49,125 nucleotides of DNA, from positions 1-49,125 of the forward strand of contig JAGORJ010000003.1 of assembly GCA_018062885.1 (NCBI GenBank), written 5' to 3'. Shown piece after piece: positions 575 to 21,750 of the stretch. Below the pieces are notes generated by a model. It saw nothing but the letters and a program-made list of their open reading frames with translations. It ran no database searches and had not been told where the DNA came from. Made by a program: the position numbers and the translations under genes. The stretch comes from Patescibacteria group bacterium. Lineage in GTDB: Bacteria > Patescibacteriota > Patescibacteriia > UBA1558 > GWA2-36-10. Every line of letters starts with the position of its first letter. The stretch's first letter is position 1.

Positions 575-985
575 TTATGGACAAAGACCCGCTACTGCAG
601 GGCCAGAACTTTTAGAGCCAGTGTTAGAGATGCAATAATCACCTGCACCACTTTCTATTGCATCCAAATCAACTGATAATGCCCAAGTAGAATTATCTAC
701 AGCCTCATTACAAGTAAAATTAGCAGCAGTTAAGCCACCAGCAACACCTGCTGAAGAAGTAGCGTTATTCAAAGCAGCATCTAAACAAAAAGCATCATAA
801 TCACTGTTATCATCTGCGAATAACTCACCTGCCGCTGCTAAACCAGACAAAGATCCTTTAACTGCGGCGATTTTTGCTTTGGAACGAGCGGAGTTTAAAT
901 TCACTACTGCTACAGAGGACAAAATACCAATGATGGCAATAACGACTAACAATTCTACTAAAGTAAAACCTTTTTTATTTTTCAT
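575..985 (-). CDS. Type IV prepilin (major pilin candidate)
   Basis: The 136-residue protein starts MKNKKGFTLVELLVVIAIIG: a five-residue basic leader, the prepilin peptidase site G^FTLVE with Glu at position +5, and a hydrophobic helix that would span the membrane and then form the filament core. After NLNSARSKAKIAA the globular domain is short and rich in Ala, Ser and Asp, with four cysteines that could form disulfides. I chose the start at 985 and not the upstream in-frame ATG at 1042 because a strong Shine-Dalgarno-like AGGGGG sits just before 985 and the leader then has normal length. It lies downstream of pilC but has its own promoter and a long 5' untranslated region, which suits a highly expressed structural subunit. 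Confidence 0.92.
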   Translation of the reverse strand: MKNKKGFTLVELLVVIAIIGILSSVAVVNLNSARSKAKIAAVKGSLSGLAAAGELFADDNSDYDAFCLDAALNNATSSAGVAGGLTAANFTCNEAVDNSTWALSVDLDAIESGAGDYCISNTGSKSSGPAVAGLCP

Positions 986-1027
986 TTTTACACCCCCTAT
1001 CTTTTGTTCAAACATTAACTTTATTAA

Positions 1028-1046
1028 AGCTTGAGATCTCAAAGCT
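1028..1046 (-). promoter_or_regulatory. Palindrome in the pilin 5' leader
   Basis: The perfect palindrome TTGAGATCTCAA (1031-1042), flanked by AGC and AGCT, lies in the untranslated leader of the pilin mRNA. It can fold as a hairpin or serve as a dimeric protein-binding site. No T-run follows, so it is not a terminator. Its function is unknown. Confidence 0.3.
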
Positions 1047-1136: not shown

Positions 1137-2345
1137 TTAACTAATGCTCTGCGCCACTTTAAACATCGGCAACATGATAGCTGCCACCATACCACCGACA
1201 CCAACACCCATGACCATCAAAATCATCGGCTCAATCAGGGCTGTCAAACCATTGACCAAGCTATCTATTTCTCTAGTATAAAACTCAGCTAACTTTTCTA
1301 AGATTGCATCAAGCTTACCAGTCTGTTCACCAATACTCATCATCTGTGAAAGCATCTTAGGCATCAGGTCAGACTTGATAAACAAAGTAACCACTGAGTT
1401 ACCATCCTCCACTTCTTTGATGGTGCCCAAAATCAAAGCACGATAAGCCTCATTATCCACCACTTCGGCGGTGATACGCAAAGCGGCTGAGACAGGCACA
1501 CCACCCCTGATCAAAGTCGAAAAACCTCGGGCAAAACGAACGATATAAATCTTTTGAAACAAAGGTCCAAAAATAGGCACCTTAACTTTGGCTGTGTCCC
1601 AAGCCAGTCTTCCGCCGGAAGTTCTAGTCCAAGCTTTAAACAAAACTACTACACCCACCCCTGCACCCACAATCAGCCACCAAAAAGATTGCATAAAGCT
1701 AGAAACTCCTATCAAAACCCTGGTCAAAAATGGCAATTCTGCCCCGGAATCAATCAGCATCTGCGTCATATTTGGCACCACAAAAATCATCATCAAAAAA
1801 CCTACCAAAATCATACCGGAAATAATAAAAACCGGATAAATCATCGCACCCTTGATGCGTGAAACCAAGTCATAGTCTTTTTCCATCTGGTCAGCTAAAT
1901 ATTGCAAAACTTCATCTAGCTTACCAGAAGTTTCACCTGATTTGACCATTGCCACATAAAAACGACTAAAAGCCTTGGGGTGCTTGGCCATGGCTGATGA
2001 CAGCTTCATACCACCGTCAACATCATTGGCCATTTCCATGATATCACCAATAAAAAGTGGATTCACTGTCTGTTGAGCCAAAATCTTAAGAGCCTGCACG
2101 ATAGGCACGGTCGCTGAAACCATCACGGAAAGCTGACGAGAAAAAATAACTACATCCTTACTTTTGACACTACCAATATTGATATTAAAGCCCTTGGAGC
2201 CTATCTTGCCACCTTCTGCCAAAGACAAAACCACCAAACCCTTGTCTTCCAAGAGCTCGATAGCAGCAGTCTCTGACAAAGCCTCTACATTACCAGTAGC
2301 AACTGCCCCTGTCTGTGATCTGACTCGATATTTAAAAGTTGGCAT
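1137..2345 (-). CDS. pilC: Type IV pilus inner-membrane platform protein PilC (GspF family)
   Basis: The 402-residue length is typical for PilC/GspF. The N-terminus MPTFKYRVRSQTGAVATGNVEA is the usual beginning of the family. Two homologous GspF cytoplasmic domains are visible (about residues 60-190 and 260-395), each with the conserved FSRQLSVMVSATVPI / FARGFSTLIRGGVPV motif and E-x-T-G-K-L-D loop (SGETSGKLD, IGEQTGKLD). There are three hydrophobic segments, near residues 163-190, 215-237 and 370-395. PilC links the PilB motor to the growing pilus. It is the last gene of the pilM-pilC run, 21 bases after the pilT-like gene. Confidence 0.95.
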   Translation of the reverse strand: MPTFKYRVRSQTGAVATGNVEALSETAAIELLEDKGLVVLSLAEGGKIGSKGFNINIGSVKSKDVVIFSRQLSVMVSATVPIVQALKILAQQTVNPLFIGDIMEMANDVDGGMKLSSAMAKHPKAFSRFYVAMVKSGETSGKLDEVLQYLADQMEKDYDLVSRIKGAMIYPVFIISGMILVGFLMMIFVVPNMTQMLIDSGAELPFLTRVLIGVSSFMQSFWWLIVGAGVGVVVLFKAWTRTSGGRLAWDTAKVKVPIFGPLFQKIYIVRFARGFSTLIRGGVPVSAALRITAEVVDNEAYRALILGTIKEVEDGNSVVTLFIKSDLMPKMLSQMMSIGEQTGKLDAILEKLAEFYTREIDSLVNGLTALIEPMILMVMGVGVGGMVAAIMLPMFKVAQSIS

Positions 2346-2366: not shown

Positions 2367-3437
2367 CTACTTAAAATTGCGCCTAAAGCTATCTGTATCA
2401 AGTGCCTGCAAAACAGCGTCGTTGGCACTCACCTCACCTACTCTGACAAGCTCAAGTAATGACTTATCTAAATTGACCATCCCCTCTTCTTTGGAAGTTT
2501 GCATAATGCTATTAAGCTGATAAAGTCTATTGTCTTTTACAATAGCTTGCACTGCCGAAGTCATAGTCAAAATCTCACAAGCCAAACTTAAACCGCCACC
2601 AATACGAGGCAACAATCTTTGCGCTACCACACCCAATAAAACTTGAGACAAGACATCTTGGCCCCAAAGTTTTTTTTCAGGTGAAAGATCACTGATAAAT
2701 CTTTCTAAGGCAGAAATCACCGAATCAGCATCCATCACCGCTATCACTAACTTACCACTTTCAGTGGCTTGCAAAATAGCCTCTTCTAAGCCAAGCTCAT
2801 TCAAAATACTGATAACCACCACATCTACATCTTCATCAATGGTCTCTAATAGGCCTTTAACAAAACTATTCGTATCTCTACCTATCTCTCTTTGTTCAAT
2901 GATACATTGGTTATTGGACAGCAAGTACTCTATCGGTTTCTCTAAGGTCTGGATATGCAAGCCTTTGTTGCGATTGAGGGTTTCTAGCAGCGAAGCAACT
3001 GTAGTGGTGCGTCCGGAGCCAAAAGGTCCAGTGATGATCAACAAGCCTCTTTCTTTGGCGATCAATTGGGTCAAAATAGCCGGCACACCTAAATCTTTGG
3101 GTGAACGAATGAGCTGAGGAATGATACGCAAAGAAAGGGCTAAATAGCCTTTTTGATAAAAAACGCGCGCACGAAAACGAGCACGATTTGCCCAAGAGTA
3201 AACAGTGATAACTTCTCTAGCGCTTTCTAAAAATTTTTTGTCAGCCTCTGTCAAAAAACTATCTGCCATTGCCAATAAAAAATCTGGGGTCAAAACCTGC
3301 TCATCTGTCAAAGTAATCAGCTTGCCATCAATACGCAAAACAGGGTAATTTCCCACGGTCAAATGCACATCAGTCGCTCGTCTTTCAGCGGACAAATTCA
3401 AAATTTTATTGATCAATAAAGTTTCTGTGGTGGACAT
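2367..3437 (-). CDS. PilT-like protein with degenerate ATPase motifs
   Basis: The 356-residue protein has the size and layout of the retraction ATPase PilT: an N-terminal PAS-like domain (ATDVHLTVGNYPVLRIDGKL), then a RecA-like domain that keeps AQRLLPR near residue 272. Every catalytic motif is altered. Walker A reads GPFGSGRT (137-144), with Arg143 in place of the invariant Lys. The Asp box reads TLEKPIEY (Asp to Lys at 167). The Walker B segment, DVDVVVISILNEL (203-215), lacks the GEMRD core. The His box reads KLVIAVMDADS where PilT has HLVFGTLHTNS. By these changes it is probably unable to hydrolyse ATP and may act as a regulatory or structural partner of PilB/PilC. It follows the response-regulator gene by 9 bases. 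Membership in the PilT family is sure; inactivity is inferred. Confidence 0.85.
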   Translation of the reverse strand: MSTTETLLINKILNLSAERRATDVHLTVGNYPVLRIDGKLITLTDEQVLTPDFLLAMADSFLTEADKKFLESAREVITVYSWANRARFRARVFYQKGYLALSLRIIPQLIRSPKDLGVPAILTQLIAKERGLLIITGPFGSGRTTTVASLLETLNRNKGLHIQTLEKPIEYLLSNNQCIIEQREIGRDTNSFVKGLLETIDEDVDVVVISILNELGLEEAILQATESGKLVIAVMDADSVISALERFISDLSPEKKLWGQDVLSQVLLGVVAQRLLPRIGGGLSLACEILTMTSAVQAIVKDNRLYQLNSIMQTSKEEGMVNLDKSLLELVRVGEVSANDAVLQALDTDSFRRNFK

Positions 3438-3446
3438 GAAAATATT

Positions 3447-3821
3447 TTATTTATTCAAAATAGTTTTGACTTTAGCTATCACTTCACTAGGCACAAAATG
3501 GGCCTTGATCAAATAATCTTTAGCTCCCAAAGCTAAGCATTTATCGATATGTTCTTTTTGAGAAAAATTTGTCAAAACTAAGACGGGAATTTTTTTGGTA
3601 CTCTCATCCTCTTTGAGGTGTTGTAAAACTTCAAAACCGTCCATTTCTGGCAAATTTAAGTCTAACAAAATAAAATCTGGTAATTCTTTTTGCGCAGCTT
3701 TCAAACCCGCTGTCCCCGTCATCGCTGTCAAAACATCAAAATCCTCTAGCTCAAATTTGGCAGCGTACATTTGTGATAAAAAATCATCATCCTCTACTAT
3801 AAGTACTCTAGTTTTTTGCAT
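3447..3821 (-). CDS. CheY-like single-domain response regulator
   Basis: This 124-residue protein is a receiver domain with no output domain. The acidic pocket is in VLIVEDDDF, the phospho-acceptor Asp is in ILLDLNLPEMDGF near residue 54, the conserved Thr is in VLVLTNFS, and the Lys is in KDYLIKAHF. Single-domain receivers of this kind (PilG/PilH-like) control pilus motors in other bacteria. Here it sits between pilB and the pilT-like gene, with gaps of about 10 bases on either side, so co-transcription and a role in pilus control are likely. No histidine kinase is present in the window. Confidence 0.92.
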   Translation of the reverse strand: MQKTRVLIVEDDDFLSQMYAAKFELEDFDVLTAMTGTAGLKAAQKELPDFILLDLNLPEMDGFEVLQHLKEDESTKKIPVLVLTNFSQKEHIDKCLALGAKDYLIKAHFVPSEVIAKVKTILNK

Positions 3822-3831
3822 AATTTTTGAT

Positions 3832-5574
3832 TTACATCTTACTGACGCGTAAGATTTCTTCTACCGAAGTTAAGCCTAATAAAGTTTTGATCATACCGTC
3901 TTGATCCATGGTCAAAAAGTTTTGCTTGATCAGCTCTTTTTCTACGGCTGTTCTATCAAAACCCTTAGCAATAATATCTTTCATATCACGCGTCACATCG
4001 ATAGTTTCTACGATGGCCAAACGGCCTTTGTAGCCAGTATTACCACACTGAGCACAGCCTTGACCACGAAAAAAAGAATACTTACCTTTTTTGGCACCAC
4101 CAAAAAATGAAGCATCTGGTATATCATCTAAGCCTTTTTTCATCTGGGCTAATATATTATCCGGTAATTTTTCCTCTATTTTACATTTTTCACAAAGCTT
4201 ACGCACCAAACGCTGTGCAATCACCACATTGAGAGTGCTAGCTAACAAAAAAGGCTCAATATGCATATCAAACATACGCGGAATAGCGCCCAAAGCATCA
4301 TTGGTATGCAAAGTAGAAAGCACAAAGTGACCTGTCAAACCAGCATGAATAGCTAATTCCGCTGTTTCATTATCACGGATCTCACCCACCATGATGATAT
4401 TTGGATCCTGCCTGAGTAAAGCTCTCAAACCACTGGCAAAAGTAAAGCCAACTTCTGGTCTTACCTGTGATTGGTTAACTCCCGGCACATAGTACTCAAC
4501 CGGATCTTCCAGGGTGGCGATGTTGACTGTGTCTTGATTTAAGACACTCAAAGCCGAAAACAATGTTGTTGACTTACCAGAACCTGTCGGACCGGTCACC
4601 AAAAACATGCCGTTTGGTTTTTTGATATTTGTCATAGCATGCTCGCCACTATAGCCCAAAAAACCAAGTTGTTCAAAGGTCGGGGCTTTTTCTGGAGTTT
4701 CCAAAATACGCATCACGACTTTTTCGTGACCCATCAAAGGAATAGTAGAGATACGAAAATCCACATCTTTGTTATGAATATTGATACGAATACGACCATC
4801 TTGAGGAATACGAGTTTCATCAATTTTCAAGTTTGACATAACTTTGATACGCGAAACCAAAGCTGAATGTACATAAATCGGTAAAACAATCGTTGTATGC
4901 AAAACACCGTCAATACGATAGCGAATTTTACTTTGATTGCCCACCGGCTCAATATGAATATCAGAAGCCCTGCCTTCTATCGCATGTCGCAAAACCACCG
5001 AAACTATCTTGGAAACCGGCGCTGACTTGATAACCTCTGTAAAACCTTTGCCGTCTTCATCATCTAAACTTTCGTCCTTGGGGGCAAAAATAGCCTCAGC
5101 TGTATCCAAAGCCGCGCCCACCTCTTCACCCAAAGTTTCGTATTGCTTCAAAGCTGCTCGATAAGAGTCTTCGGAAATAATATAAAATTTGATTGTGTAT
5201 TGATTTTTACGAGCTAAAAAATTCAAAGCCTCCATGGCTTTGAGATTACTAGGATCAACTAAGCCCGCATCTATCTGCTTGCTTTCTTTATTGAAAACAA
5301 CCATGCGATAATTTTCTGCCAAATCTTGAGGTAAAATATTCAAAATTTCAGCATTGATCACTTTGCCAGCTAAATTGATATACTCCATATCAAAAAAGAT
5401 GCCCTTGCCCTGAGTCCAGTCTTCATCGGAAATCAAAATTTTTCTTCTGACTTGTTTTTCAACATCGGCAAAAGAATCAAATTTTGCATTCAAAAATTCT
5501 TGATATTGAGTATCATTTACTAGACGCTTGGTCTGTAAAAAAGATAATAATTTTAACAATTCTTTTTTTGTCAT
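3832..5574 (-). CDS. pilB: Type IV pilus extension ATPase PilB (GspE family)
   Basis: The 580-residue protein has an N-terminal MshEN/GspE-N-like domain (about 1-160), then the N2 domain with ASDIHIEP (203-210), then the ATPase domain. All motifs are intact: Walker A GPTGSGKS (328-335), Asp box TLEDPVEY, Walker B VGEIRD (396-401), and His box LSTLHTNDA. A zinc site is formed by CEKC (461-464) and CAQC (507-510), as in other PilB proteins. It powers pilus assembly on the PilC platform. It is the only intact ATPase of the operon, in contrast to the degenerate PilT-like protein two genes downstream. Confidence 0.97.
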   Translation of the reverse strand: MTKKELLKLLSFLQTKRLVNDTQYQEFLNAKFDSFADVEKQVRRKILISDEDWTQGKGIFFDMEYINLAGKVINAEILNILPQDLAENYRMVVFNKESKQIDAGLVDPSNLKAMEALNFLARKNQYTIKFYIISEDSYRAALKQYETLGEEVGAALDTAEAIFAPKDESLDDEDGKGFTEVIKSAPVSKIVSVVLRHAIEGRASDIHIEPVGNQSKIRYRIDGVLHTTIVLPIYVHSALVSRIKVMSNLKIDETRIPQDGRIRINIHNKDVDFRISTIPLMGHEKVVMRILETPEKAPTFEQLGFLGYSGEHAMTNIKKPNGMFLVTGPTGSGKSTTLFSALSVLNQDTVNIATLEDPVEYYVPGVNQSQVRPEVGFTFASGLRALLRQDPNIIMVGEIRDNETAELAIHAGLTGHFVLSTLHTNDALGAIPRMFDMHIEPFLLASTLNVVIAQRLVRKLCEKCKIEEKLPDNILAQMKKGLDDIPDASFFGGAKKGKYSFFRGQGCAQCGNTGYKGRLAIVETIDVTRDMKDIIAKGFDRTAVEKELIKQNFLTMDQDGMIKTLLGLTSVEEILRVSKM

Positions 5575-5583
5575 ATTTATTCT

Positions 5584-5913
5584 TTATTCAGCGGCAAAAG
5601 GATAAGGATTACCAGGGTTATTGCGGATATCAATAGAAGTATCTAGATCTAAATTTAATTTTTGGTATTGCGCGTTACTTTCCAATTTTTGCAAAACATC
5701 TTTTTCACCAGAATTAAGCGGGAAGAAACTCAAATTTTCTGTAGCTAAATTTTTTATCTTCAAGACTTTCACCGCATCACTCTGCGCAGTATTTTCAGTA
5801 TTTTGCGCATCTTCTTTAGTCAAGAAAGAAAAAATAAACCAGGCACCTACTATCAAAGCAAGTGCTAGGGCAATCATGATAAGAATCATTGATCTACGAT
5901 TTTGTTCTGCCAT
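5584..5913 (-). CDS. Small single-pass membrane protein of the pilus operon
   Basis: The 109-residue protein has a short cytoplasmic start (MAEQNRRS), one membrane helix (about 9-30), and an extracytoplasmic region. The C-terminus reads IRNNPGNPYPFAAE. Its position directly after the pilO-like gene is where pilP often lies, and the Asn-Pro...Pro-Phe end loosely recalls the R-x-(N/D)-P-F motif of PilP-type proteins. It has no lipoprotein signal and is shorter than PilP. I can support an accessory role in the alignment subcomplex only from context. Confidence 0.7.
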   Translation of the reverse strand: MAEQNRRSMILIMIALALALIVGAWFIFSFLTKEDAQNTENTAQSDAVKVLKIKNLATENLSFFPLNSGEKDVLQKLESNAQYQKLNLDLDTSIDIRNNPGNPYPFAAE

Positions 5914-5918
5914 ATAAT

Positions 5919-6617
5919 TTATTTATTCACAAAATAAGTTTTCATTGTAAAAGTCATCATCAAGCTCTCGCCTGAGCCAGAAAAACTCAAAGACTCCACA
6001 TCCATCAAACGCACATTTCTTTCTAGGTCATCTAAATATTGCTTAAACAAGTCATAAGGATTAGGTATGATTGCGGACGCTACTTCTTCATCATCCCCAG
6101 TGGCTTCTTCTGGAGGTATTTGACTGACCGTCATATTGATAGAGACCGTTTCTAAAGCAGAGCTCGGAATCACCGCTTCCCCTTCTTCTCCTGCTACTGC
6201 TTTTTTAGTAGCCTGATCATCGCCTTCAGTGCTAAAATCAACATTTTGTAAGATAAAACCTCTATTTAAAGCTAATCTTTCAGCGAGCACGAATAATTCC
6301 GCGATTTCTGGATTTTCTGGCACAATTTTTTGTAATCGTAGCAAAGCATTAGTTCGCTCTGTTTTAGCTTTTTGAAACTTAGTTTCCAAATCACTGACTT
6401 GAGCAATAAGAGCATTGACATCTTTTTCAGCTGCACTCACTTCAGTAACCGAAGCTTTAGCTTCTGTAAATTTTTTGATGCCAGGACTCAAAACCAATAA
6501 ATAGCCAAGCACAAAAACAACTAAGATCAAGACTCCTAAAATTGCCCCTAAATATTTGTTGGCCAGTAATAAAAGTTGACTTGGCTGTTCAAATTGCGCA
6601 TCTGTTTTATTAGCCAT
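5919..6617 (-). CDS. pilO: PilO-like alignment-complex protein
   Basis: The 232-residue protein has a cytoplasmic start, one membrane helix (about residues 27-50, GAILGVLILVVFVLGYLLVL), a coiled-coil stretch (about 60-110, with KFQKAKTERTNALLRLQKIVP), and a C-terminal globular domain. The sequence VPENPEIAELFVLAERLALNRGFILQNVDF matches the PilO pattern in which the coiled coil ends at a P-x-x-x-E-hydrophobic segment. It lies 3 bases after pilN, the standard order. It would form heterodimers with PilN and align the pilus machine. Confidence 0.85.
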   Translation of the reverse strand: MANKTDAQFEQPSQLLLLANKYLGAILGVLILVVFVLGYLLVLSPGIKKFTEAKASVTEVSAAEKDVNALIAQVSDLETKFQKAKTERTNALLRLQKIVPENPEIAELFVLAERLALNRGFILQNVDFSTEGDDQATKKAVAGEEGEAVIPSSALETVSINMTVSQIPPEEATGDDEEVASAIIPNPYDLFKQYLDDLERNVRLMDVESLSFSGSGESLMMTFTMKTYFVNK

Positions 6618-6620
6618 ATA

Positions 6621-7610
6621 TTATTCTTTTACTTCTTCATAATAAAATAGCTCCGGATTCAGTGTGAGCTCAATCGTAAAATTAACACCTGTGTCACTCA
6701 AAGTTGCAGAAGATATATTAACACCAGACACAAACTCTTTGGCTTGCTCATCTTGTAGAACTTTGAGCTGTCTCGCAACTGTATAATAGTCAGGCGCCGT
6801 AGCGTCCAAAGTCAAGGCGCTATTTCCTCCAGCAGCAAAAGAACCGTAAGAAACATTAGCTAAAGTATATTTTTCTAACAAAGCAAAAAATTGTGTCCAA
6901 TAGACATGTTTAGCTAAGGCATCGTAAATAATTTGCACTTCCTTACCGACTGAATTAATCTCCTGACTAATAGCCTCAAAACCCAAAAGTTTGTTTTCAA
7001 TTTCTGTGATATTTTTGGCAGTGGTATTTTCACTACTAGACAAACGAGCACTCATAGTCAAAAATCCAAAATAAAACACAACCACTACACCAACTGCCCC
7101 CAACAAAGCAAACAAAGAAAAACTAGTGATTTGTTTCCAAGTTTTAAGCTTACTAGAGCTTGGCACCAAATCAACTCCCTCAGCAGTATCTATAAAACGG
7201 GCGTGCATGGTTTTTTCTGGCTGATGAAATTGACCGTCTATTTTGTCAGAACTTGCGTCTTGAAGTTCAAAACCATTCGCCATCGGTGCCTTTGGCAGAG
7301 AAACATTTTCTTTTCTCTCTTCTACTTTTTCTGGCACTACTATTTCAGGCACAACAAGAGCAGCAGCTTCCTGAGGAGGCACTGTTTGAGCAACAGGCTC
7401 TACAGTGCTATTTTTTTCTACATCTTGTTTATGCAGTCTATCAGCAAATTTTGCCATCCAAGAAGCATGCCCGCCACTCAAGTTAGCCAAGTCTATTTCT
7501 TCTTCTTTATTTTGAGGAACCCTAAGCTCAGGCTCTTGAGCACTAGACTGTGCCTTAACTTCTTTTTGCCTCAAATCTTCGGGCATTAAATTTATATTAT
7601 CTGCTGCCAT
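6621..7610 (-). CDS. pilN: PilN-like alignment-complex protein with long cytoplasmic extension
   Basis: The 329 residues far exceed normal PilN (about 180-210). Residues 5-14 read NINLMPEDLR, the PilN motif that docks in the groove of PilM. It is followed by a low-complexity linker of about 130 residues rich in Glu, Val, Pro and Lys. A second similar motif, GVDLVPSS (145-152), comes just before the single membrane helix (about 162-186). The C-terminal extracytoplasmic part (about 187-329) has a coiled coil and a ferredoxin-like PilN domain. It lies between pilM (10-base gap) and pilO (3-base gap). The PilN role is well supported; the reason for the long linker is unknown. Confidence 0.87.
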   Translation of the reverse strand: MAADNINLMPEDLRQKEVKAQSSAQEPELRVPQNKEEEIDLANLSGGHASWMAKFADRLHKQDVEKNSTVEPVAQTVPPQEAAALVVPEIVVPEKVEERKENVSLPKAPMANGFELQDASSDKIDGQFHQPEKTMHARFIDTAEGVDLVPSSSKLKTWKQITSFSLFALLGAVGVVVVFYFGFLTMSARLSSSENTTAKNITEIENKLLGFEAISQEINSVGKEVQIIYDALAKHVYWTQFFALLEKYTLANVSYGSFAAGGNSALTLDATAPDYYTVARQLKVLQDEQAKEFVSGVNISSATLSDTGVNFTIELTLNPELFYYEEVKE

Positions 7611-7620
7611 TTAATTTATT

Positions 7621-8814
7621 TTAAATATCACGCATCGCCAGCCCAATGCTAGCTGCCATTCTTGGTCCAATTTCTTGCAAAACTGGCTTTAGGTCCAAAG
7701 GATAAATGATTCTATCCCAAGGATCACCAATAATGACGGATAAATTGAGCAATTCTGATAAATACTGAGGTAAGCTTGGTAAAAATGCACTACCGCCAGC
7801 CAAAACTATTTTTTCAATTTTGGTATCACCTTGTCTTTGATAAACATCAAAAACATATTTGATTTCATTGATAATCGGACTCAAAGCATTTTGGATAGTA
7901 TTTGGCACTGAACGATTCGCACCTGTCATCAAACCAAAATCTCTTTTGAACTGCTCTGCTCTGTCAACATTGACATTCATGCTATTCATGATCGCTTGCG
8001 TAATCACTTGACCACCACTATCAATGCCACGGTTCAAAATCGGCACACCATCCTCTATCACACAAATATCAGTATTATTTGAACCAATATCCACAATCAT
8101 TACACTAGACATGTCATTGCCCATCATCGATCTAGATAAGGCAAAAGCCTCTGTTTCCAAACTGACTAAATCTAAATTGGTTCTTTTGAAAATATCCAAG
8201 TAGCGAGAGACCAAGTTTTTTGGCGCTGCTGTCAATAAAATACGATAACTTTTGGCTCCACTGACTCCTCTGTCTACCACCTCGTCTAAATTGGTATTTT
8301 TCTTTACTGGCGCTTCTTCGGCTTCAGAATCGTCTTTTGTCTCTGCAGATTCCTCATTTTTTGCTGCTTTATTAAAGAGATTGCCTAATTTATTACTACT
8401 TTGCGCCACAGCTTCTGAACCAAAGTCTTTTTTGTTCAAAATTTTCCAGTCCAAAATCATTTCTTCAATAGGCAAAGGGATGAATTTTTTTGCTTCCCAT
8501 TTGATAGCTGAAGCTAAATCTTTTTTTGGCATTGGCGGCAAAGAAATAATAGAGGTAAAAACAGAAAAAGTGGGTAAAGCAGCAATTGCCCGGCGAGATT
8601 CCATGCGTGATTTTTTGACAATAAATTTGATATAATCAGCAATCAACTGATTGTTTTTTTCAGTGGAGGCTTTTAAAATATTGGTATTGATATCGGCGTA
8701 GCCATAAGTCTTGAGTTTGGCTTGGCCTTTATAATTTTCTAGTTCAACAATTTTAACACTGGCTGTACCAATATCAACTCCCAAATAACTATTCACACTT
8801 GAAAATAATTGCAT
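7621..8814 (-). CDS. pilM: Type IV pilus actin-like protein PilM
   Basis: The protein (397 residues) has an actin/FtsA fold: phosphate-1 motif LGVDIGTASVKIVEL (11-25), phosphate-2 motif MIVDIGSNNTDICVIEDG, and the adenosine motif KIVLAGGSAFLPSL near the C-terminus. The stretch FIPLPIEEMILDWKIL is typical for PilM. An acidic, low-complexity insertion (about residues 131-188) makes it some 45 residues longer than usual. PilM is cytoplasmic and binds the N-terminal peptide of PilN. It is the first gene of the pilus operon and has a clear promoter. Confidence 0.95.
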   Translation of the reverse strand: MQLFSSVNSYLGVDIGTASVKIVELENYKGQAKLKTYGYADINTNILKASTEKNNQLIADYIKFIVKKSRMESRRAIAALPTFSVFTSIISLPPMPKKDLASAIKWEAKKFIPLPIEEMILDWKILNKKDFGSEAVAQSSNKLGNLFNKAAKNEESAETKDDSEAEEAPVKKNTNLDEVVDRGVSGAKSYRILLTAAPKNLVSRYLDIFKRTNLDLVSLETEAFALSRSMMGNDMSSVMIVDIGSNNTDICVIEDGVPILNRGIDSGGQVITQAIMNSMNVNVDRAEQFKRDFGLMTGANRSVPNTIQNALSPIINEIKYVFDVYQRQGDTKIEKIVLAGGSAFLPSLPQYLSELLNLSVIIGDPWDRIIYPLDLKPVLQEIGPRMAASIGLAMRDI

Positions 8815-21477: not shown

Positions 21478-21569
<92 letters not shown>

Positions 21570-21578
21570 TATAGTTTT

Positions 21579-21666
21579 GGAGAGTTGGCAGAGTGGTCTA
21601 ATGCGGCAGTCTTGAAAACTGTTGTCCTGAAAGGGACCGAGGGTTCGAATCCTTCACTCTCCGCCA
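21579..21666 (+). tRNA. tRNA-Ser (anticodon UGA)
   Basis: The acceptor stem is GGAGAGT/ACTCTCC with discriminator G and encoded CCA. The anticodon loop CTTGAAA gives UGA. It has a long variable arm (88 bases) and lies 11 bases after the Ser-GCU gene. Confidence 0.96.
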
Positions 21667-21674
21667 TTTAATAT

Positions 21675-21750
21675 GTCCTCGTAGCTCAGTGGATAGAGCG
21701 TTTGGTTGCGGTCCAAAAGGTCGCAGGTTCGACTCCTGCCGGGGACACCA
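21675..21750 (+). tRNA. tRNA-Arg (anticodon GCG)
   Basis: The 76 bases fold cleanly: acceptor GTCCTCG/CGGGGAC, D stem GCTC/GAGC, anticodon stem TTTGG/CCAAA, loop TTGCGGT, T stem GCAGG/CCTGC, discriminator A, and encoded CCA. A20 in the D loop is an arginine identity base. The anticodon is GCG. Most bacteria use ACG, deaminated to ICG, for the CGU/CGC codons. Confidence 0.92.

Follow-up and report, generated by a model that had tools for sequence, protein, structure and literature searches.

What might a PilT homologue be doing when it holds its place in a type IV pilus operon with the catalytic motifs largely rewritten? PilT is a textbook motor; the gene considered here, pseudo-PilT (pilTx), lies in the window, by which we mean the whole 49,125-nucleotide stretch of contig JAGORJ010000003.1 from a Patescibacteria group bacterium (genome G000 below). 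The original prediction had placed a PilT homologue at positions 2,367 to 3,437, and these limits proved exact: the minus-strand frame begins with ATG, runs without interruption for 356 residues and matches solved PilTs along its length (PDB 2ewv over residues 7-351, E 1.1e-68; PDB 6ojx over nearly the full length, E 7.9e-58). Full-length homology, which bears on descent and not on function, places the protein in the PilT/PilU family; its score with NCBIfam TIGR01420 is 294.2 bits and does not reach the curated cut-off of 319.1. The operon runs in the order PilM, PilN-position, PilO-position, a 109-aa protein, PilB, CheY-like receiver, pseudo-PilT, PilC and pilin-like protein, with only 9 bases between pseudo-PilT and the receiver gene and 21 between it and PilC. 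The features are as follows, residues here and throughout being numbered as in the window protein.

575-1042, minus strand: pilin-like protein with an N-methylation motif, from sequence
1137-2345, minus strand: PilC platform protein (T2SSF)
2367-3437, minus strand: pseudo-PilT, 356 aa, by homology to PilT
2721-2762, minus strand: His-box region ESGKLVIAVMDADS, residues 226-239, without either His, from sequence
2796-2831, minus strand: Walker B region DVDVVVISILNE, residues 203-214, without GEMRD, from sequence
2925-2945, minus strand: Asp box LEKPIEY, residues 165-171, Lys167 for Asp, Glu166 and Glu170 kept, from sequence
3006-3029, minus strand: P-loop GPFGSGRT, residues 137-144, Arg143 for the Walker A Lys, from sequence
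3447-3821, minus strand: CheY-like receiver, 124 aa, with phospho-Asp54, Thr84 and Lys106 (Pfam Response_reg match)
3832-5574, minus strand: PilB-type extension ATPase with intact motifs GPTGSGKST and GEIRD, from sequence
5584-5913, minus strand: 109-aa protein in the PilO-PilB interval, by sequence found chiefly in the window's own family
5919-6617, minus strand: PilO-position protein, without a Pfam match, named from its place
6621-7610, minus strand: PilN-position protein, without a Pfam match, named from its place
7621-8814, minus strand: PilM, from sequence

The same genome codes for four PilB-type ATPases (on C3, C5, C35 and C51), the one on C51 adjoining a receiver-like gene. Elsewhere in the window, three tRNA genes are clustered at 21478-21750: Ser(gct), Ser(tga) and Arg(gcg).

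The motif changes that the original prediction named, namely a Walker A Arg, an Asp-box Lys, the loss of GEMRD and a rewritten His box, in a frame that keeps its length, its AQRLLP and its operon place, are all in the sequence. In the window protein EDVDVVVISILNE stands where PilT has its Walker B with GEMRD, VGEMRD reading ISILNE and the catalytic Glu being Ile211. Similarly, ESGKLVIAVMDADS replaces ETGHLVxATLHTNS, where ETGHLV..LHTN has become ESGKLV..MDAD and the two histidines Lys229 and Asp236. The Walker A Lys, the Walker B GEMRD Glu and the His-box histidines that mark an active PilT are thus all missing.

Relatives were gathered from the class by a search of 53 genomes and a profile search of 285, the loci then being fetched, and from the phylum by a profile search of 379 genomes. 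The operon-type group of the class comprises 115 copies, one per genome, and was defined by profile score, not by motif. PilB or PilC lies near 108 of them, and neither was found near the other seven; PilC is directly downstream in 94 of the 115, and the gene directly upstream is the receiver (81) or PilB (17) in 98. These relatives have full-length frames at 31-78% identity, those at 58-78% including loci from Parcubacteria and Komeilibacteria MAGs; the class itself is probably ABY1 of GTDB. Not one of the 115 has the complete catalytic set: the Walker B Arg is kept in one, His229 in one and His236 in two. The P-loop glycines persist (G137 in 115/115, G142 in 113/115), as does D188 in every copy, and residue 143 is basic in 110 (Arg in 87, Lys in 23, something else in five). 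A further 18 operon-type copies were drawn from class genomes whose second match was weaker or unread; they are likewise degenerate, which makes 0 of 133 with a complete set; 132 of these were judged in full, since the G099 copy (196 aa, among the 18) is a fragment that lacks the Walker B and His-box regions. The G004 copy (198 aa, cut at a contig end, also with Arg143) was excluded by the length filter, and G093:C8, a PilT that is nearly intact and beside which no pilus genes were found, was kept out of the count.

The original prediction held that all ATPase motifs had decayed, and this stands for the Walker B and the His box. It does not stand for the P-loop with its conserved basic residue, which in the window is, on this reading of the sequence, altered (K to R) and not decayed. 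The Asp box is mixed: Asp167 has become Lys, and the nearly invariant Glu166 and Glu170 are each retained in 112 of the 115 class copies. A change of Walker A Lys to Arg was also dismissed as the defining lesion, given that Lys is kept in 23 of 115 and that the state at residue 143 requires at least 14 changes within the degenerate clade, which indicates interchange of Arg and Lys there, unlike in the intact PilTs examined. In two sister copies, L199 (G196) and L231 (G226), the P-loop itself is gone (GPFGSHMQL and GPYGSQQDL), and with it, probably, nucleotide binding. Arrangement also varies, as L145, L150, L161, L165 and L170 show: four genomes from a single family carry pseudo-PilT upstream of PilM, not PilB, and the G165 copy is away from pilus genes.

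Outside the class the picture is different. Walker A, Walker B and His box are intact in all 26 of the other-class PilTs that scored best with the degenerate profile (25 with PilB or PilC nearby) and in all 20 taken from lower in the list (18 with PilB or PilC nearby), that is, in 46 of the 46 examined, with minor variants such as GELRD, Glu or Asn in the Asp box, and IHAGS for LHTNS. Intact Walker motifs at this locus, which would speak against a pseudo-ATPase, are accordingly the rule among the other-class copies examined, and a full catalytic set occurs in none of the 133 class copies. Two of the intact other-class operon PilTs, L258 (G538) and L265 (G595), bear proline-rich N-terminal extensions of about 140-200 residues with no Pfam match there.

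In the window's genome G000, which measures 731 kb and is about 95% complete, a second pilT at C36:5852-6886 codes for an intact protein of 344 aa with the motifs GPTGCGKST, LEDPIEY, GEMRD and ETGH..LHTH and a TIGR01420 score of 437.2 bits against the cut-off of 319.1. Lone PilTs of this kind are intact in 30 of 30 class cases (29 plus G047), and PilB or PilC was found beside none of the 30 class lone loci examined. A gene for a protein with a cyclic-nucleotide-binding domain directly follows the lone intact PilT at all 13 lone loci from the window's family (G000:C36; L002:500-1453, minus strand) and at 0 of 17 other lone loci.

A tree of 170 rows, built with the motif columns removed and two of 172 rows (300 aa or shorter) left out, recovers the 113 degenerate class copies as one clade (SH-aLRT 100), sitting in a group with eight intact other-class PilTs (SH-aLRT 100); the lone PilTs group apart, in a clade of their own (SH-aLRT 100). 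Support is only 9 for the branch that sets the operon PilTs together against the lone ones; with a quick search that used no mixture model and a root on a single Frackibacter row, this makes the deep branching order tentative. The topology fits a single loss of motor function in the class's ancestral operon copy, with a second PilT lineage presumably acting as the motor. We regard pseudo-PilT as PilT by descent and, to judge from its motifs, not by function, and as very probably a dead motor.

How might a dead motor serve? Most likely the protein still binds nucleotide, as its P-loop suggests, and does not hydrolyse it. There is a laboratory parallel in RecA K72R, in which a Walker A Lys to Arg change stops ATP hydrolysis while filaments and D-loops still form (according to the available part of PMC3973344); this is a single engineered mutation in a DNA recombinase and thus an analogy only. 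We propose that pseudo-PilT would bind nucleotide and form a ring, without ATP hydrolysis or the switching of packing units, and that this ring would dock at the PilC platform beside PilB; both ring formation and docking are assumed from the PilT family. Once docked, it would gate the motors passively and keep the pilus base in a state that does not retract (or is ready to extend), with retraction supplied by the separate intact lone PilT. That pseudo-PilT gates the pilus motors at the PilB/PilC base has, in our estimate, about an even chance of being right. In its fullest form, the proposal is of an ancient, class-wide division of labour, wherein the operon PilT would be a clutch ring that holds ATP without hydrolysing it and, possibly under the control of the phosphorylated receiver, locks the pilus base between extending and retracting, the second PilT lineage being the motor; taken whole, this is a tentative and rather doubtful reading.

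A different role for the same dead ring, possible and again rather unlikely when taken alone, is that of an adaptor on PilC that brings in the lone intact PilT to do the actual work. A precedent comes from Vibrio cholerae, where, as the available part of the report describes (PMC6821130), PilU can retract pili when pilT carries K136A and not when pilT is deleted. The distribution of the two proteins bears on it from both sides. With a criterion of E<=1e-106 for the lone PilT and a cross-count with pseudo-PilT made by hand, a lone PilT is present in 209 of the 285 sampled class genomes and in 111 of the 119 that carry pseudo-PilT, as an adaptor would lead one to expect. However, no full-length second PilT was found in six pseudo-PilT genomes (G046, G055, G065, G201, G210 and G272, with G055 doubtful on account of a short fragment), and in two others, G179 and G221, the second match is partial only. 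G065, at 99% completeness in six contigs, keeps pseudo-PilT with no other PilT, which suggests that pseudo-PilT has a use without an active PilT. Conversely, about 98 of the 285 have the lone PilT with pseudo-PilT not detected, and among the lone-only genomes with the PilBs nearest to that of the window, PilC follows PilB with no PilT between in 16 of 16 readable operons, two more loci being cut by contig ends and standing outside the 16. Hence pseudo-PilT is dispensable in many lineages and, the losses having gone in both directions, neither PilT strictly needs the other.

The same operons weigh on the idea that pseudo-PilT is a cofactor on the PilB side, helping to start or sustain extension with no role in retraction. 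Its gene does lie between pilB and pilC, its retention in G065 without a second PilT would fit, and V. cholerae PilT binds MshE and PilB in two-hybrid assays and is needed for extension of the MSHA pilus, as stated in the accessible part of PMC9815625. Yet PilB is kept without pseudo-PilT in all 16 of those lone-only operons, and the V. cholerae authors themselves, in that same portion, call the physiological relevance of motor-motor interactions unclear. We therefore consider a pure extension cofactor unlikely.

The CheY-like regulator that the original prediction saw directly beside the gene is indeed there. The window receiver has the phospho-acceptor Asp, the acidic pair, the Thr/Ser and the Lys, and by these residues it looks phosphorylatable and active. 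A receiver is directly upstream of pseudo-PilT in 81 of the 115 copies, and among these 81 class neighbours the phospho-acceptor Asp (Asp54) is present in all, and the Thr/Ser and the Lys in 80 each. In other classes it stands beside an intact PilT in five of 26 cases, with Glu for the phospho-Asp in two of those five. The receiver is also retained in eight of the 16 readable operons without pseudo-PilT (one of the eight being a weak match, and one of the other eight having an unread gap of 530 bases). A receiver dedicated to pseudo-PilT is weakened as a candidate by this: it is not the exclusive partner of pseudo-PilT, and, since half of those operons have kept it after losing pseudo-PilT, PilB is a target no less likely. 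There is precedent for a receiver acting on a pilus ATPase in PixE and PilB1 of Synechocystis (available part of PMC7690835), and the neighbouring receiver may pass a signal into the base complex. A fusion of receiver and PilT was sought as a Rosetta-stone case and rejected, as three longer other-class PilTs have no receiver domain, only unmatched N-terminal stretches.

A further rival reading takes pseudo-PilT for a divergent yet active ATPase, working with a P-loop Arg and with a different acidic residue standing in for the Walker B Glu. The conserved P-loop and Asp-box glutamates would accord with this, as would the Walker B Glu at position 211, kept in 39 of 115 class copies, and the Glu or Asp at 214 in 60 of 115. 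However, no acidic residue is fixed at 211 or 214, the window itself has Ile211, His229 is lost in 114 of 115, and all 57 intact PilTs have both Lys143 and the Walker B Glu. The contacts between subunits point the same way. In Geobacter metallireducens PilT (PilT-Gm), three residue pairs, H230-T221, T221-T133 and R195-T133, make contact in the closed interface and are evolutionarily coupled, as given in the available text of PMC6858323. Mapped through the alignment with 6ojx, for which a 20-residue offset between the chain and the paper's numbering was inferred, H230, T221, T133 and R195 correspond to window residues 236, 227, 139 and 201. Intact PilTs have there H in 57/57, T in 57/57, T in 49/57 and R in 57/57; in the degenerate clade these positions are mostly D/E/N, S/G/A, F/Y and D/E/Q, with Arg201 in 15 of 115, which leaves all four replaced in most copies. 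The contacts of PilT-Gm G277, P271 and D32, in turn, map to residues mostly retained (104, 99 and 73 of 115). With the coupled set replaced and these others kept, the ATP-side switch from subunit to subunit has been dismantled and other parts of the interface retained. We consider an active enzyme very unlikely in general; some members of the class could have residual activity, in view of the Walker B Glu in 39 and the Lys143 in 23 of 115.

As a separate observation on the P-loop, 94 of the 115 degenerate copies have Phe or Tyr as its third residue (139; window 3021-3023), where 49 of the 57 intact ones have Thr, and the aromatic residue is, by this comparison, a derived trait common to the degenerate copies. 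An AlphaFold2 model from 11 sequences (mean pLDDT 62.7, pTM 0.42) was too poor and was set aside.

A functionless, decaying gene has virtually no probability left: the lost catalytic residues and the absence of the gene from many class genomes might recall one, but dN/dS is 0.030-0.109 over ten genome pairs (dS being saturated in several), the frames are full-length at the low identities given above, and D188 is universal. In the two pairs with unsaturated dS (0.60 and 0.67), dN/dS is 0.051 and 0.061 for pseudo-PilT versus 0.025 and 0.041 for PilB, for which dS estimates from eight of the ten pairs were used. Sequencing error is likewise ruled out, identical lesions recurring across many independent genomes. 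Lesions common to the relatives, together with low dN/dS, amount to more than chance. The relaxation is regional: at residues 201-270 the mean entropy per column goes up from 0.71 to 2.27 bits, compared with 1.90 to 2.14 at 1-110, 1.31 to 1.83 at 111-200 and 1.49 to 1.92 at 271-350. Constraint is thus, by this measure, released over 201-270, which takes in the Walker B, the His box, the stretch after it and residues of the neighbour-subunit coupling. The idea of a selected pseudo-ATPase, as originally put forward, is borne out by the class-wide occurrence in one clade, the low dN/dS, the operon position kept and the intact PilT elsewhere; the two roles suggested with it, a subunit mixing with PilB or a block on retraction, are possible ones.

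Several known systems resemble this one in part. The retraction ATPase PilT (6ojx, 2ewv, 5zfq) shares with pseudo-PilT its homology, length, pilB-pilC place, P-loop glycines, Asp-box glutamates and C-terminal residues; pseudo-PilT differs in having neither GEMRD nor the His-box histidines, in the window's Arg for the P-loop Lys, in its replaced closed-interface contacts and in its TIGR01420 score below the cut-off. PilU likewise is a second PilT-family protein in one cell, but it is reported to be active as an ATPase and to have the Walker A Lys (available part of PMC6821130), whereas here it is the operon copy that would be dead, the lone copy being intact. The V. cholerae PilT K136A is ATPase-dead, still forms rings and interacts, supports PilU and, when overexpressed, inhibits native PilT (same portion of PMC6821130). 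In contrast to this laboratory allele with one residue changed, pseudo-PilT is natural, affects several motifs and is found class-wide. FimX offers a case of an enzyme fold retained as a type IV pilus regulator (excerpted text of PMC11656802), but it is a relative of c-di-GMP enzymes, pseudo-PilT being one of motor ATPases. Among the accounts of natural PilTs, all four of Geobacter keep the four motifs (available text of PMC5065972), and the PilB and PilT of Saccharibacteria possess ATP binding and hydrolysis sites (available text of PMC12206443). A dead PilT was not found in the accessible portion of a review of PilB control (PMC11656802), and we found no report of a natural pseudo-PilT fixed at its own operon place in the open-licence literature as partly available, where absence is a weak sign.

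The locus would thus represent a natural separation of the structural role of PilT from its ATPase role, a point raised by the V. cholerae laboratory alleles. In cultivated Saccharibacteria of the same phylum, type IV pili contribute to host binding, according to the available part of PMC12206443; a class-wide change in the control of retraction would hence bear on attachment to hosts. If the reading of pseudo-PilT as a clutch ring is true, a whole class of presumed episymbiotic bacteria would control its attachment pili with a dead motor.
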